The translations under genes were made by a program, and so were the position numbers. This document shows, in pieces, positions 702 to 31,694 of a stretch of DNA of 33,887 bases (the stretch's first letter is position 1; every line of letters starts with the position of its first letter). The notes beneath the pieces are model-generated. The model was not told the DNA's origin. It saw only the letters and a program-made list of their open reading frames with translations, and ran no database searches. The DNA is taken from NCBI GenBank assembly GCA_009920665.1, contig RFZL01000024.1, positions 1 to 33,887 on the forward strand. Direction: 5' to 3'. Source of the DNA: Alphaproteobacteria bacterium. GTDB taxonomy: Bacteria > Pseudomonadota > Alphaproteobacteria > Puniceispirillales > Puniceispirillaceae.

Positions 702-740
702 CCGCCAGTCTGTTCCGCCAGTCTATTCCGCCGCTGATTC
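702..740. repeat. 13-bp tandem repeat across the gcvP stop codon
   Basis: Plus-strand units CCGCCAGTCTGTT (702-714) and CCGCCAGTCTATT (715-727) differ at one base. A third degenerate unit (728-740) lies inside the coding sequence. The gcvP stop TAG (723-725, minus strand) falls in the second unit; the matching triplet in the first unit is CAG. Confidence 0.75.
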
Positions 741-3590
741 CCATTCATCGATGCTCGGGCAGGAACAGATCAGGTTGCGGTCGCCCCAGGCATTGTCGAT
801 GCGGCTCACCGGTGGCCAGTATTTGTTCGCCTGCCGGTTCAAATCCGGACTGGCGGCCTCCTCGCGGCTATAGGGATGGCTCCACACAGCGGTCAACAGA
901 TCGGCCGCCGTGTGCGGCGCGTTGACAAGCGGGTTGTCATCACGGGGCCATTCACCCGCTTCGACCTTGCCGATCTCGCCGGCGATCGACAGCATCGCAT
1001 CGCAGAAGCGGTCGATCTCGGTGATCGATTCCGACTCCGTCGGCTCGATCATCAGGGTGCCGGCAACCGGGAATGACATGGTCGGTGCGTGGAAGCCGAA
1101 ATCGACAAGCCGCTTGGCGATATCCTCGTTGCTGATGCCACTGCGCTCCTGGATGCCGCGAATGTCGATGATGCATTCATGGGCCACCCGGTCGTTCGCG
1201 CCGGTATAAAGAACCGGATAATGCGGTGACAGCCGCGACGCCATATAGTTGGCGGCCAGGATCGCCGTTCCCGTTGCCGCCTTCAGACCCTTGCTCCCCA
1301 TCATGCGGATATAGGCATAGGTGATCGGCAATATGCCGGCGGACCCGAACGGCGCGGCGCTTACCGCGCCTTCGCCGGCCAGCGGCGAGCTGGGAAGGAA
1401 TGGCACCAGATGCGCCGCGACACCGATTGGCCCGACACCCGGACCACCCCCGCCATGCGGGATACAGAAGGTCTTGTGAAGGTTCAGATGGCTGACATCG
1501 GCGCCGAATTCCGGCAGCGAGCAATGCCCAACAAGGGCGTTCAGATTGGCCCCGTCGACATAGACCTGACCACCGGCCTCATGCACGATGGCGCACAGCT
1601 CGACGATCGATTCCTCGAACACGCCATGCGTTGAGGGGTAGGTGACCATGATCGCCGCCAGCGCATCCCGGTGCGTCTCGGTTTTCGCCTTCAGATCCTC
1701 GATATCGACATTGCCGTCATCATCGCATTTCACGACGACGACCTTCATGCCGGCCATCGCGGCCGAGGCCGGGTTGGTGCCATGCGCCGATTGCGGGATC
1801 AGGCAGATATTGCGATGTCCCTCACCGCGCGATTCATGGTAGCGCGAGATCGCCAACAGGCCGGCAAATTCGCCCTGCGAGCCGGCATTCGGCTGCAGTG
1901 ACACGCCAGTATAGCCGGTGGATTCAGCCAGCATAGCCTCCAGCCGCGCGATCATCGCGGCATAGCCCGCGGCCTGGTCGGCCGGCGCATAGGGATGGAT
2001 GTTGGCGAATTCAGGCCAGGTCACCGGGATCATCTCGGCGGTGGCATTCAGTTTCATCGTGCAGGAGCCAAGCGGGATCATGCAGCGGTCAAGCGCCAGG
2101 TCGCGATCGGCAAGGCTGCGCATGTAGCGCAGCATCTCGGTCTCGGTGCGATAGCGATGGAACACCGGCTGGCGCATGAAACCGTCGGCCCGCCGCAACG
2201 CGTCGGGAATCGCCGTGGCCGGCGCTGTGGCACCGGCAGCGGACGCTCCCAGCGCCTGAAGAAGCCGGTCCAGCATCCCGGCCGATCCTGTCTCGTCGAA
2301 ACTGGCGGCAATGGCGCCATCCATGATCCGCAGATTGATCCCGGCATCGCATGCCGCGGCGATCAGTTCATCACGATCCTCCGGTGCCTCGATGACGACG
2401 GTATCGAAGAAATCATCATGCCTGACCGTACGACCGGCGGCACGCATGGCGGCGGCAAAGCGGCAGGCCAGCGCGTGCGCGTGACCGGCGATCCGGGTCA
2501 GCCCTTCCGGCCCGTGCCATAGCCCGTAGAAGCCGGCCATCACCGCCAGCAGGACCTGTGCGGTGCAGATGTTCGAGGTTGCCTTTTCACGGCGGATATG
2601 CTGTTCGCGGGTCTGTAGTGCCAGCCGGTAGGCCATGCGCCCGCCACTATCCTGGCTGACCCCGACAAGCCGCCCCGGAATGGCGCGCTGATGTGCCGTG
2701 CGGCAGGCAAAGAAGGCAGCATGCGGACCGCCATATCCGAATGGCACGCCAAAACGCTGCGCCGAGCCCAGAACGATATCGGCACCAAGATTGCCGGGCG
2801 CCTCGAGAAGCGTCAGCGCCAGCAGGTCCGAGGCTATGATGGCAAGGCCGCCGGCATCATGGATGGCGGTGATCGCCGGCCTGATATCGCGTACCGCGCC
2901 GCTGCTTCCCGGATAGCTGATCAACACGCCAAAGCACCCCTCTCCATAGGGTGCTGCGGGTGATTGCAGCTCAATCTCGATCCCGATCGGCCGTGCCCTT
3001 GTGCGCAGGACAGCCAGCGTCTGTGGATGGGTATCGGGGTCGACCCGGAAGATGGTGGCCTTGCCACGATGCGCGCGGAACGCCATCGCCATGCCCTCGG
3101 CGGCGGCCGTCGCCTCGTCGAGAAGCGAGCCGTTGGCGATGTCCATGCCGGTCAGCTCGGTGATCATCGTCTGGAAATTCAGTATCGCCTCGAGGCGGCC
3201 TTGCGAGATTTCGGGCTGATAGGGCGTGTAGGCGGTATACCAGGCCGGATTTTCCAGCACGTTACGAAGCACCACCGGCGGCGTGTGGCAGCCATAATAG
3301 CCCATGCCGATCAGCGAGGTGACCACCTTGTTCTGCGCCGCCAGCGCACGCATTTCGGAAAGGATGTCGGCTTCGGACAATGCTTCTGGCAGATTCATCT
3401 CGTCATGCCGGCGGATGCCGGCCGGGATTACCTCGTCAATTAGCGCCTCCAGCGACGGGACATCGAGGCTGGCAAGCATGGTCGTGATGTCATGCGAATT
3501 CAGCCCGATATGACGGGTCTCGAATGCGGCCTGCGGCGTGTCCTGCGGGACGCCATTCACGTCGTTCGGTGATGACTCAAGTGGTGACAT
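723..3590 (-). CDS. gcvP: Glycine dehydrogenase (aminomethyl-transferring), P-protein of the glycine cleavage system
   Basis: This is the PLP-dependent P-protein, which decarboxylates glycine and loads the aminomethyl group onto the lipoyl arm of GcvH. It is a single 955-residue chain, the full homodimeric form rather than split gcvPA/gcvPB. The N-terminal ETRHIGL motif is typical. The PLP lysine is K706 in [17 protein letters not shown], and the C-terminal half carries the SCTMKLNA and GANLNALVG family motifs. I chose the ATG at 3590 because AAGGAGA sits 5-8 nt upstream; an in-frame ATG at 3656 has no such site and would add 22 unlike residues. It is the last gene of the riboswitch-led gcvT-gcvH-gcvP operon, 101 nt after gcvH. 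A 13-bp tandem repeat crosses its stop codon. Confidence 0.97.
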
Positions 3591-3691
3591 GCTGGTCTCC
3601 TTTGCTTTTCTTTTCAGCCGGTGGCACCCGGCCCCATCATATGTCTGCGGCAACACCGTGCGGGTGGGGGCCCGCCGGCGCGGCCTGTCTG

Positions 3692-4054
3692 TCAGGCAAT
3701 CATCGCGCTGTAGGCGGCGTCATCCATCAGCCCGTCAAGTTCGCCGGCATCGGCCACCTTGATCTTGAACAGCCAGCATTCATGCGCCCGGTCGGGCGTG
3801 ATGCTGGCCAGATCATCCAGCAGCGCCTGATTGACCTCGGTGATTTCGCCACTGGCCGGGCTGTAGATATCGGAGGCGGCCTTTACCGATTCGAACACCG
3901 CGACCGAATCGCCCTTGCCGACCGTGGTACCGGCCTCGGGAAGCTCGACAAAGACGATGTCGCCAAGCTGTTCAATGGCGTGGGGCGAAATGCCGACTGC
4001 CCCGGTATCACCGTCAAGATTGATCCATTCATGGTCCTCTGTGTAACGCAACAT
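3692..4054 (-). CDS. gcvH: Glycine cleavage system H protein (lipoyl carrier)
   Basis: This 120-residue lipoyl-domain protein shuttles the aminomethyl intermediate from GcvP to GcvT and dihydrolipoyl groups to the L-protein. The lipoylation lysine is K58 in the [13 protein letters not shown] motif, and the N-terminal YTEDHEWI motif is canonical. The start at 4054 follows a good ribosome binding site (GGAAGGAGACTGAC). An upstream in-frame extension to 4351 overlaps gcvT and is spurious. It lies 25 nt after gcvT and 101 nt before gcvP, so the three genes form one unit. No L-protein gene is adjacent; the flavin oxidoreductase at 24.5 kb is not a convincing L-protein because its C-terminal active-site motif is altered. 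Confidence 0.97.
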
Positions 4055-4079: not shown

Positions 4080-5219
4080 TCATCCGCGGATATAGCGATG
4101 TGGCACCAGCGGCAGCGCCGCAACGGTAACCGGCACCTCGCGCCCGCGAACCAGTGCGTTGATTTCTGTTCCCGGCGTGGCCAGCGCTGTGTCGACAAAA
4201 CCGAGTGCGGCCGGCGCATCAAGGCTGGGGGCGAACCCGCCTGATGTGACAATGCCGATGATGGCCCCGTTGAGCGCAAGTTCGGCCCCGTCGCGTACCG
4301 GACGGCCACCCTGCGGCAGCAATCCGACAAGCCGCCGTCTGGGCCCGTCATGCCAGTCGGTCATGATGGCGGCGGCACCGGGAAAATCGCCTGCCTCGCG
4401 GCGGCGCCTCGACAGTGCGAAACGCAGCCCGGCGGCCACCGGGTTGATCGCCTCGTCAAGTTCATGCCCCCACAGCGGCAGGCCGGCCTCAAGCCGAAGC
4501 GTGTCGCGCGCGCCAAGCCCGGCAAGGCTGACCGCCTCGTCGGCGCACAGACGCTCGGCAAGCTGAGCTGCGTTTTCGGCCGGCATCGAAATTTCGAACC
4601 CGTCCTCGCCGGTATAGCCTGAACGGGTGACGATGCAGTCAATGCCATCGATCCTGAAATGCCCGATCTGCATGAAGAAGAAGTTGTCCAGATCGACACC
4701 AAGCCGGTGCAATATCTGAGGTGACTGCGGGCCCTGAAGCGCCAGCAGCGCGCGGTCATCTCGCACCTGCATCGTCACATCAGCATGAAGATTGGCATCC
4801 TGAAGATTGGCACCATTTAGATTGGCACCATGCAGATTGGCGCGAAGATGCGCGATGTCATGGTCGGCGCGGCCGGCATTGACGACAAGCTGCAAGCCCC
4901 CATCGAGCCGCGCAATCATCAGATCGTCGAGAACACCGCCATTTGTGTCGAGGAACAGTGAATAGCGAACGCGCCCCTCGGCGATGGCACCGATATCGGT
5001 CGGGGTGAGGCGTTCGAGCGCCGCATCGGCATCCGCGCCGCCGATCCAGATTTGGGCCATGTGCGATACGTCGAACAGGCCGGCCGAGTCGCGGGTCGCC
5101 AGATGCTCGGCCTTGATGCCGTCAGCATATTGCACCGGCATGTCCCAGCCGGCGAACGGCACCATCCGCGCGCCATTGGCGAGGTGGAAATCGTAAAGTG
5201 GGGTCCGGCGGGTCTCCAC
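4080..5219 (-). CDS. gcvT: Aminomethyltransferase, T-protein of the glycine cleavage system, with a repeat insertion
   Basis: This 379-residue tetrahydrofolate-dependent T-protein releases ammonia and forms 5,10-methylene-THF from aminomethyl-GcvH. Visible motifs are RTPLYDFH, MVPFAGWDMPVQY, LFDVSHMAQ, RDDRALLALQGP, SGYTGEDGFE and the C-terminal R/G-rich barrel. I chose the GTG at 5219: it follows AGGAG with 7-nt spacing, while an in-frame TTG at 5255 lies inside the leader terminator hairpin. Residues about 127-145 are an unusual insertion of four A-N-L-x-x units encoded by 15-bp tandem repeats, placed between the ADHDIAHLR and DVTMQVRDD segments, where family members normally have a short loop. 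The reading frame is kept, so the protein is probably functional. It is the first gene of the riboswitch-controlled operon. Confidence 0.96.
   Translation of the reverse strand: METRRTPLYDFHLANGARMVPFAGWDMPVQYADGIKAEHLATRDSAGLFDVSHMAQIWIGGADADAALERLTPTDIGAIAEGRVRYSLFLDTNGGVLDDLMIARLDGGLQLVVNAGRADHDIAHLRANLHGANLNGANLQDANLHADVTMQVRDDRALLALQGPQSPQILHRLGVDLDNFFFMQIGHFRIDGIDCIVTRSGYTGEDGFEISMPAENAAQLAERLCADEAVSLAGLGARDTLRLEAGLPLWGHELDEAINPVAAGLRFALSRRRREAGDFPGAAAIMTDWHDGPRRRLVGLLPQGGRPVRDGAELALNGAIIGIVTSGGFAPSLDAPAALGFVDTALATPGTEINALVRGREVPVTVAALPLVPHRYIRG
4787..4846. repeat. 15-bp tandem repeat (4 units) inside gcvT
   Basis: The four units start at 4787, 4802, 4817 and 4832. The core AGATTGGCA is shared by the first three, and the fourth reads AGATTGGCG. 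On the coding strand they give A-N-L-x-x repeats, the motif of pentapeptide-repeat proteins. The units differ at a few bases, so the array is not brand new. Confidence 0.9.
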
Positions 5220-5241
5220 GGGGTCACTCCTGTTACGACGC

Positions 5242-5274
5242 AAAAAGAAACGCAATTCGACAAAGTCGAATGCG
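5242..5274 (-). terminator. Intrinsic terminator in the gcvT leader (riboswitch expression platform)
   Basis: On the minus strand, CGC-ATTCGAC pairs with GTCGAAT-(T)-GCG around a TTT loop, a ten-pair stem with one bulged T, followed directly by TTTCTTTTT. It sits between the second glycine aptamer and the gcvT ribosome binding site. Its left arm abuts the AGAGAGGG that closes aptamer 2, which suits ligand-dependent antitermination. Confidence 0.75.
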
Positions 5275-5515
5275 CCCTCTCTGTCGTCGAACCTGAGAGA
5301 TTTCCCGCCTGATCATCCATTATCGGGACAGAAGCCCCGAATAGGGGCCTGGGGTCCCGGATGATATGACGGCGGCTTTCCCCGTCGGTGGGCACTGCCG
5401 TGCCGCTTTCCAGAGTGCTCACAGAATAGAGAGTACGGGCACCTGAGAGTTTCCTGGGCCTTTGCTCCTTCGGTGGCCGCATCGGACAATGCCGCCGCGA
5501 CTCTCTCCCCTCCAC
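5275..5515 (-). promoter_or_regulatory. Tandem glycine riboswitch controlling gcvT-gcvH-gcvP
   Basis: The minus strand shows two glycine-aptamer cores in a row. Aptamer 1 (about 5515-5431) has GGGGAGAGAG, then GCCACCGAAGGAGCAA, then GGAAACTCTCAGGT. Aptamer 2 (about 5411-5275) has CACTCTGGAAAGCGGC, then CCACCGACGGGGAAAGCCGC, then GAAATCTCTCAGGTTC and a closing AGAGAGGG. These match the known glycine riboswitch consensus (GGAGAG, CCGAAGGGG-CAA, CTCTCAGG). In this family glycine binding normally turns gcv expression on; that is inferred here from the downstream terminator. Boundaries are approximate. Confidence 0.92.
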
Positions 5516-5701
5516 TGTATCGAGCCGGTGAATGCTATGCGTTCGGGTAACTTTAGGCAAGAGGTAAAGCGTCGTGAGCCACAAGCGGTGCGCAATGGTG
5601 CCGCGCCGCCAGCTTTCGCCTTGCGACCGGCTGCTGCCGCCCCCATATCCCGTTGGCGTGACGAGCATGGCGTCACATGGTCAGGATCAGCGAGACTTAA
5701 C

Positions 5702-24242: not shown

Positions 24243-24318
24243 TGGTGCTGCCAGCGTGATTCGAACACGCGACCTCACCCTTACCAAGGGTGCGCTCTAC
24301 CGCTGGAGCTATGGCAGC
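24243..24318 (-). tRNA. tRNA-Thr (anticodon GGU)
   Basis: The minus strand folds into a 76-nt cloverleaf. The acceptor GCTGCCA pairs with TGGCAGC, then A73 and an encoded CCA. The D arm is GCTC/GAGC. The anticodon arm is CACCC-TTGGTAA-GGGTG with anticodon GGT. The T arm is GCGTG-TTCGAAT-CACGC. It reads ACC/ACU codons. Confidence 0.97.
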
Positions 24319-24409: not shown

Positions 24410-24492
24410 CCATATGCCAGCCGGTATACCGGCAGGGCCATATGCCAGCCGGGATACCGACAGGGCCATATGCCAGCCGGGTCCCGCCGGTG
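24410..24492. repeat. 28-bp tandem repeat, almost three units
   Basis: Units start at 24410, 24438 and 24466, each opening with CCATATGCCAGCCGG. Units 1 and 2 are nearly identical, and unit 3 diverges in its second half. Unit 1 contains the perfect palindrome CCGGTATACCGG. The array lies between the oxidoreductase stop (24496) and tRNA-Thr and holds no gene. Confidence 0.9.
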
Positions 24493-26665: not shown

Positions 26666-26725
26666 CAATGCCGTGACCCGCAATGCCGTGACCCGCAATG
26701 CCGTGACCCGCAATGCCATGACAGG
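26666..26725. repeat. 15-bp tandem repeat, four units, upstream of the TVP38 gene
   Basis: CAATGCCGTGACCCG is repeated perfectly at 26666, 26681 and 26696; a fourth copy at 26711 has three changes. It begins 36 bp upstream of the chosen start of the minus-strand membrane protein gene. Confidence 0.95.
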
Positions 26726-31390: not shown

Positions 31391-31609
31391 ATGGCCAAGG
31401 AAGGCGTTATCGAATTCTCGGGGACAGTCGCAGAACTGCTCCCGAACGCAATGTTTCGGGTGAAGCTCGACAATGACCACGAGGTGCTGGCCCATACCAG
31501 CGGCAAGATGCGCAAGAACCGCATCCGCATCCTTGCCGGCGACCGGGTCAATGTCGAAATGACGCCCTATGATCTGACCAAGGGCCGGATCACGTTCCGC
31601 TTCAAATAG
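31391..31609 (+). CDS. infA: Translation initiation factor IF-1
   Basis: This 72-residue S1/OB-fold protein is IF-1, which occupies the ribosomal A site during initiation. The sequence [48 protein letters not shown] and [13 protein letters not shown] is canonical. The ATG at 31391 follows GGAAAGGTGATT. The last codons and stop form the first unit of a 19-bp tandem repeat. A TTGACC at 31331 might be part of its own promoter but no good -10 is seen. Confidence 0.98.
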
Positions 31610-31653
31610 CCCCGGCCGTTTCAAACAACCCCGGCCGTTTCAAACAGCCCTGG
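31597..31653. repeat. 19-bp tandem repeat, three units, across the infA stop codon
   Basis: CCGCTTCAAATAGCCCCGG (31597-31615, containing the infA stop TAG) is followed by CCGTTTCAAACAACCCCGG (31616-31634) and CCGTTTCAAACAGCCCTGG (31635-31653). The TAG is CAA or CAG in the downstream copies. Confidence 0.9.
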
Positions 31654-31694
31654 CTGATATCCGCCAGCCATGGATGCCAGCCGTGGAGGGCCGG

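Follow-up and report, generated by a model that had tools for sequence, protein, structure and literature searches.

An in-frame 15-bp tandem array at a loop of the glycine cleavage T-protein in a marine member of the Puniceispirillaceae

The gcvT locus and its repeat array

The window (the whole stretch of DNA analysed, 33,887 nucleotides of contig RFZL01000024.1) carries gcvT, the gene for the aminomethyltransferase or T-protein of the glycine cleavage system, on the minus strand at 4080..5255. The gene has 391 codons when read from the TTG at 5255, and a GTG at 5219-5217 (codon 13) is an alternative start. It is followed on the same strand by what we take to be gcvH, encoding the H-protein (3692..4054), and gcvP, encoding the P-protein glycine dehydrogenase (723..3656); both names come from reading the translations by eye rather than from a family scan. 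A glycine riboswitch aptamer (RF00504, 50.6 bits) lies upstream of gcvT at 5421..5520, also on the minus strand. This single aptamer precedes the gene, and a search of positions 5230-5620 down to an E value of 1 detected no second glycine aptamer.

The gcvT product matched the NCBIfam equivalog PRK13579.1 over its full length (476.8 bits vs a cut-off of 459) as well as TIGR00528 (311.2 bits, cut-off 235.85), and contains the Pfam domains PF01571 and PF08669. The T-protein fold was recovered in the comparison with the human structure 1wsr_A (E 4.8e-48, TM 0.90/0.95), and Bartonella 3gir also matched. The protein is thus like other members of the aminomethyltransferase family (PF01571 plus PF08669) in its full-length match, its fold, the riboswitch upstream and the presence of gcvH and gcvP downstream; the named relatives that were retrieved with it are SAR116 and Puniceispirillum records. 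There are 11 GcvT-like places in the genome, and as the other ten share 32% identity or less with this one, the genome has one close GcvT. Outside the array, comparison with the gene of a sister species (G007) gave a dN of 0.052 and a dS of 0.36 (dN/dS about 0.14), indicating purifying selection on the enzyme. Judged by its sequence, gcvT is therefore intact and under purifying selection, and aminomethyl transfer activity is predicted, for which the dN/dS ratio is indirect support.

Codon reading and Tandem Repeats Finder identified four 15-bp units within gcvT at 4782..4841 on the minus strand. They occupy codons 139-158 and encode ANLHG, ANLNG, ANLQD and ANLHA (GCC AAT CTG CAT GGT / GCC AAT CTA AAT GGT / GCC AAT CTT CAG GAT / GCC AAT CTT CAT GCT). 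The program reported the array at 4784-4841 with a period of 15, 3.9 copies, 83% matches and a score of 81. The four in-frame units described in an earlier note on this DNA are therefore real; that note placed them at about residues 127-145, which fits a count from the GTG at codon 13 but becomes codons 139-158 when counted from the TTG. When the codon order of this gcvT was shuffled 2000 times, the score never reached 81 (maximum 78), so chance within the gene does not account for the array. The changes between the units, of which there are at least six, are found only in unit columns 9, 10, 12 and 14, which correspond to the silent third base of the leucine codon and the two free codons, and A-N-L is kept in all four units.

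Arrays of this kind are not confined to gcvT. Within 433,887 bases of this genome (the window plus twenty further stretches, 16% of the genome) 17 arrays had a Tandem Repeats Finder score of at least 80, ten of which have a period divisible by three, and short tandem growth is therefore common in the genome. One hundred dinucleotide shuffles of the window, amounting to 3.4 Mb, produced one array at or above 80, with a score of 84; across the genome, short tandem arrays are in excess (17 in 434 kb vs 1 in 3.4 Mb of shuffled window). Only one of the 17 scores lower than the gcvT array. Four of them are in the window, and the three besides gcvT are stronger and apparently intergenic, with open frames judged by eye: a 15-bp array of 3.8 copies (26666-26722), a 28-bp array of 2.6 copies (24410-24481) and a 19-bp array of 3.1 copies (31597-31654). 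A tRNA-Thr gene (GGT, minus strand, 24243-24318) lies about 90 bases from the 28-bp array. Elsewhere in the same genome (L139:1977-2047, C2) there is another 15-bp array, of 4.7 copies, which encodes ISAGV repeats in a 516-codon open frame.

The loop in related genomes

The site was compared across a genus sample, in which 11 of 12 genomes matched GcvT at 1e-100 (the other, G003, matched only residues 205-390 and is uninformative at the site), and a family sample, in which 28 of 61 genomes matched at 1e-90, 16 of them from other genera; all 16 of these sites were read. The 86 GcvT rows used for the counts below are 98 loci, from this genome, the genus and the retrieved relatives, minus L004-L008 (paralogues in this genome with no tblastn match at 1e-20), L002 and L003 (paralogues in this genome with 30% and 28% identity) and L019-L023, whose compared stretches are identical to those of L009, L011, L015, L016 and L017. 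Three loci of the comparison were retained despite stops, namely L017 (G004), with one TGA in the match, and L125 and L130, with one stop each.

Two of the 11 genus sites carry the array (this genome and G007), one has a 12-bp insert (G010) and eight have a short loop. The short loop is also present in 13 of the 16 genomes from other genera, and the remaining three (G031, G032 and G034) have five extra residues of other sequence there; the GcvT proteins of G032 and G034 (L118 and L119) are identical. Measured against G009, the closest array-free genome, segment length varies from -3 to +5 residues in 84 of the 86 rows, and the two arrays stand at +15 and +20. This bears out the proposal of the earlier note that the segment is an insertion relative to the family at a place where members have a short loop, and no aligned relative was found to have the same segment as fixed-length sequence without repeats.

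Reading the flanks of the site shows where the repeat began. Array-free G009 (L010) reads HLR-ANL-GDN-V, in which the end of the helix is followed by a 3-residue turn, this genome reads HLR-(ANLxx)3-ANL-HAD-V and G007 reads HLR-(A[NS]Lxx)4-ASL-HGD-V. As G009 ends the same helix in HLRANL with a 3-residue turn, the opening A-N-L of the array is the ancestral one, and the gain amounts to three units exactly. The earlier note was thus correct that four units are present, but only three were added: unit 1 (4827..4841, minus strand) holds the A-N-L seed at the end of the GcvT helix, and the net gain of 45 bp, or 15 residues, is placed at 4782..4826 on the minus strand, although the exact breakpoint is arbitrary. 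With one genome per species, G009, this genome and G007 differ by whole units (0, +3 and +4). Of the 86 rows, 14 read A-N-L when aligned at this place; 12 of these have no array, and the 14 comprise seven of 11 genus rows and seven of the 75 other rows.

In a maximum-likelihood tree of 27 rows, built from columns filled in at least 60% of rows with the sparser ones dropped, this genome and G007 are sisters (96/94) and G009 and G010 fall in the next clade (100/98); the order of G009 and G010 was left unresolved. A 40-residue probe comprising the insert and its flanks matched three of 136 genomes of the order at an E value of 0.001, namely this genome, G007 and G010, the last over probe residues 1-20 only. 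When 385 genomes sampled from the class were probed at 1e-4, the only match was this genome, and no other array was found, a result that applies to arrays with flanks of this genus, which the probe carries, as a distant GcvT with an unlike insert could escape it. Because the probe misses G009 it detects arrays rather than GcvT generally.

Other inserts at the same loop were compared with their neighbouring sequence. The 12-bp insert of G010 (L011) gives RANL-RANP and is like the neighbouring seed at 8 of 12 bases, a likeness reached in 4 of 372 in-frame neighbouring blocks of the G010 gcvT, shifted registers included; it is probably a 12-bp duplication of the seed, going by these base matches. 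The five-residue inserts of G031, G032 and G034 resemble their neighbours at 8-9 of 15 bases, and as 12 of 360 blocks reach 8 in L118 (G032) and 3 of 369 reach 9 in L121 (G031), such likeness is not rare in those genes and is no evidence of duplication. At the level of sequence these three inserts show only that the loop accepts length changes. Repeated duplication at the loop, which had been considered as support for the interpretation below, is weakened accordingly, and the odds given there are independent of it and unchanged.

The GcvT of the sister species (L009) is 90% identical to that studied here and has five units, ANLHD ANLHG ANLHG ASLHG ASLHG, of which units 2 and 3 are identical, units 4 and 5 are identical, and two carry serine in place of asparagine. 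The last base of the unit, position 15, is always T in this genome (four units) and always C in G007 (five units). Given this species-specific base and the two identical pairs in G007, replacement of unit copies has probably gone on since the two species diverged; the sequences indicate that copies are probably turning over. The earlier suggestion that base differences between units show long retention holds to the extent that the array is common to both sides of a species split (gcvT dS 0.36), but the species-specific bases suggest turnover of the copies.

These bases also bear on whether the two arrays share one ancestral origin or each grew separately out of the same seed. Independent gain would fit the array-wide species base at position 15, the smaller differences among G007 units (0-2 bases) than between those and the units of this genome (1-5 bases), and the occurrence in a third species, G010, of a different step (12 bp) at the same seed. 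We consider it unlikely, if still worth weighing, as the two are sister species in the tree with the same 15-bp register, unit 1 of this genome differs at one base from units 2 and 3 of G007 but at 2-3 bases from every other unit in its own array, and turnover of an inherited array yields the same species-specific base. A single gain in the ancestor of this genome and G007 is the simplest reading of the sequences.

Structure of the insert and its likeness to pentapeptide repeats

The AlphaFold model of GcvT (59 sequences) has a mean pLDDT of 92.9, falling below 50 at residues 144-155, and in it the insert is flanked by a helix (127-141) and a strand (161-164). The model of the G007 protein has a mean of 91.7, is below 50 at residues 144-162 and shows one isolated bridge residue, 160. 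Neither model contains a helix or strand of three or more residues inside the insert. Each alignment held just two array-bearing sequences and the low confidence may only mean that, so low pLDDT is no proof of flexibility; we infer from it that the insert may be flexible and at the surface. Compared with G009 the protein is 15 residues longer between the helix and the strand, and the solved T-proteins (human, Bartonella, B. subtilis, Thermotoga and E. coli) are without 9 to 15 of its residues at this place.

The units resemble those of pentapeptide-repeat proteins (PF00805) in being tandem A-N-L-x-x repeats whose score lies just above the gathering cut-off (21.5 vs 20.2 bits, in one stretch covering profile positions 6-23 of 40), and a genome-wide profile search scored the gcvT array at 24.5 bits. 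Members of that superfamily are right-handed square beta-helices with four repeats per coil, whereas the insert was modelled as coil with pLDDT below 50 in both species; although low confidence of this sort neither shows nor excludes a beta-helical coil, a beta-helix is not supported by models in which the insert is low-confidence coil in both species. According to the abstract of PMC8145042, eight or more repeats mark a member of the superfamily, whereas there are four units here, beginning with GcvT's own seed, and five in G007. The right-handed beta-helix proposed in the earlier note is accordingly not borne out by repeat number, and modelling, which that note had named as a way to see whether the units form a beta-helical turn, returned low-confidence coil instead.

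The array could nevertheless be read as a nascent pentapeptide element, in which four units close one square beta-helical coil on GcvT and are selected for stability or partner binding. The profile score above the gathering threshold, the retention of A-N-L in all four units with replacements confined to free positions, and the presence of a longer array in the sister species are what this reading would predict. It is improbable given the low-confidence coil in both models (with only the lone bridge residue in G007), the copy number of four vs five, the change from asparagine to serine in two G007 units, and the fact that it posits one coil without a stacking partner when at least eight repeats are the mark of the superfamily (PMC8145042).

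Descent of the segment from elsewhere, as a horizontally copied or mobile repeat or as a fragment of a pentapeptide gene inserted in gcvT, is barely credible. Beyond the match to PF00805 itself it draws on a degenerate repeat pattern that gave 17 matches in the genome at up to three mismatches vs two for the reversed control; three of these are the array itself, with 0-1 mismatches, and the others, two with two mismatches and 12 with three, are scattered, which led us to reject a mobile or dispersed repeat. No second PF00805 match was found in the genome at an E value of 0.1 or better, in a search that was positive in ten of 14 control genomes, and derivation from a pentapeptide-repeat gene was therefore also rejected. 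As for common descent with other pentapeptide arrays, the first unit proved to be the end of the GcvT helix, that is, ancestral GcvT sequence. On sequence grounds the A-N-L-x-x pattern is most likely coincidental, derived from the GcvT seed with no pentapeptide-repeat ancestor. Among the matches listed in open-licence literature on pentapeptide repeats and on SAR116 tandem repeats there was no report of this GcvT insert.

An assembly or sequencing artefact is just as hard to credit, for although the assembly comprises 214 contigs, of which the window is one, a relative of another species with its own record (JAAZUU010000120.1, G007/L019) has the array at the same codons with another copy number, which makes a one-off assembly error unlikely, and the array is short, in frame and made of units differing in sequence.

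Origin of the array and its implications

The array is best explained, with a probability of about 0.8, as an in-frame tandem expansion, recent, still changing and specific to this lineage, of a GcvT loop that tolerates added length. In the ancestor, helix 127-141 would have ended in HLRANL and been followed by a three-residue turn and then the strand V-T-M. Slippage or unequal exchange would have copied a 15-bp stretch starting at A-N-L (GCC AAT CTN NNN GNN), and growth in whole 15-bp steps would have left the reading frame and the fold on either side intact. Selection would have purged lengths that shift the frame and changes that damage the enzyme, leaving unit number free to drift, and the protein, the one close T-protein of the genome, presumably remains functional, with its 15 extra residues making a flexible detour from helix to strand. 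The earlier proposal of a segment growing by slippage inside a core enzyme is well supported as regards growth in exact 15-bp steps at a short loop; slippage as the mechanism, and near-neutrality, are what we infer. One observation runs counter to expansion of a tolerant loop, in that the changes between units spare A-N-L, as selection for A-N-L would, but their count is tiny, and two of the five G007 units have serine for asparagine.

Growth of this kind is known from the in-frame minisatellites of bacterial genes, which grow by slippage and typically lie in surface proteins or linkers. The gcvT array is like them in having whole-unit copy differences between species and a period that is a multiple of three, but is unlike them in that it sits in a core metabolic enzyme and its unit happens to encode a motif familiar from a structural repeat. 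In mechanism the array is ordinary; what sets it apart is the structural repeat that its unit reproduces.

A more far-reaching possibility, which we regard as doubtful, is that the array is a snapshot of the birth of a pentapeptide structure, in which a chance A-N-L at the end of a helix in a core enzyme was amplified by 15-bp steps, reaching four units, the length of one full coil, in this genome and five in G007. With A-N-L retained in the present array and change limited to the free positions, it may already be selected as a small folded element on GcvT.

Should the array be no more than a loop expansion, it illustrates clearly how chance can produce a repeat motif out of sequence that an enzyme already has, and it warns that a match to the Pfam Pentapeptide family barely over threshold need not imply common descent with its members. 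Should the units prove to fold, they would mark the starting stage in the origin of a beta-helical repeat within a functioning enzyme, for which array-free, 12-bp-insert, four-unit and five-unit relatives are available to compare.
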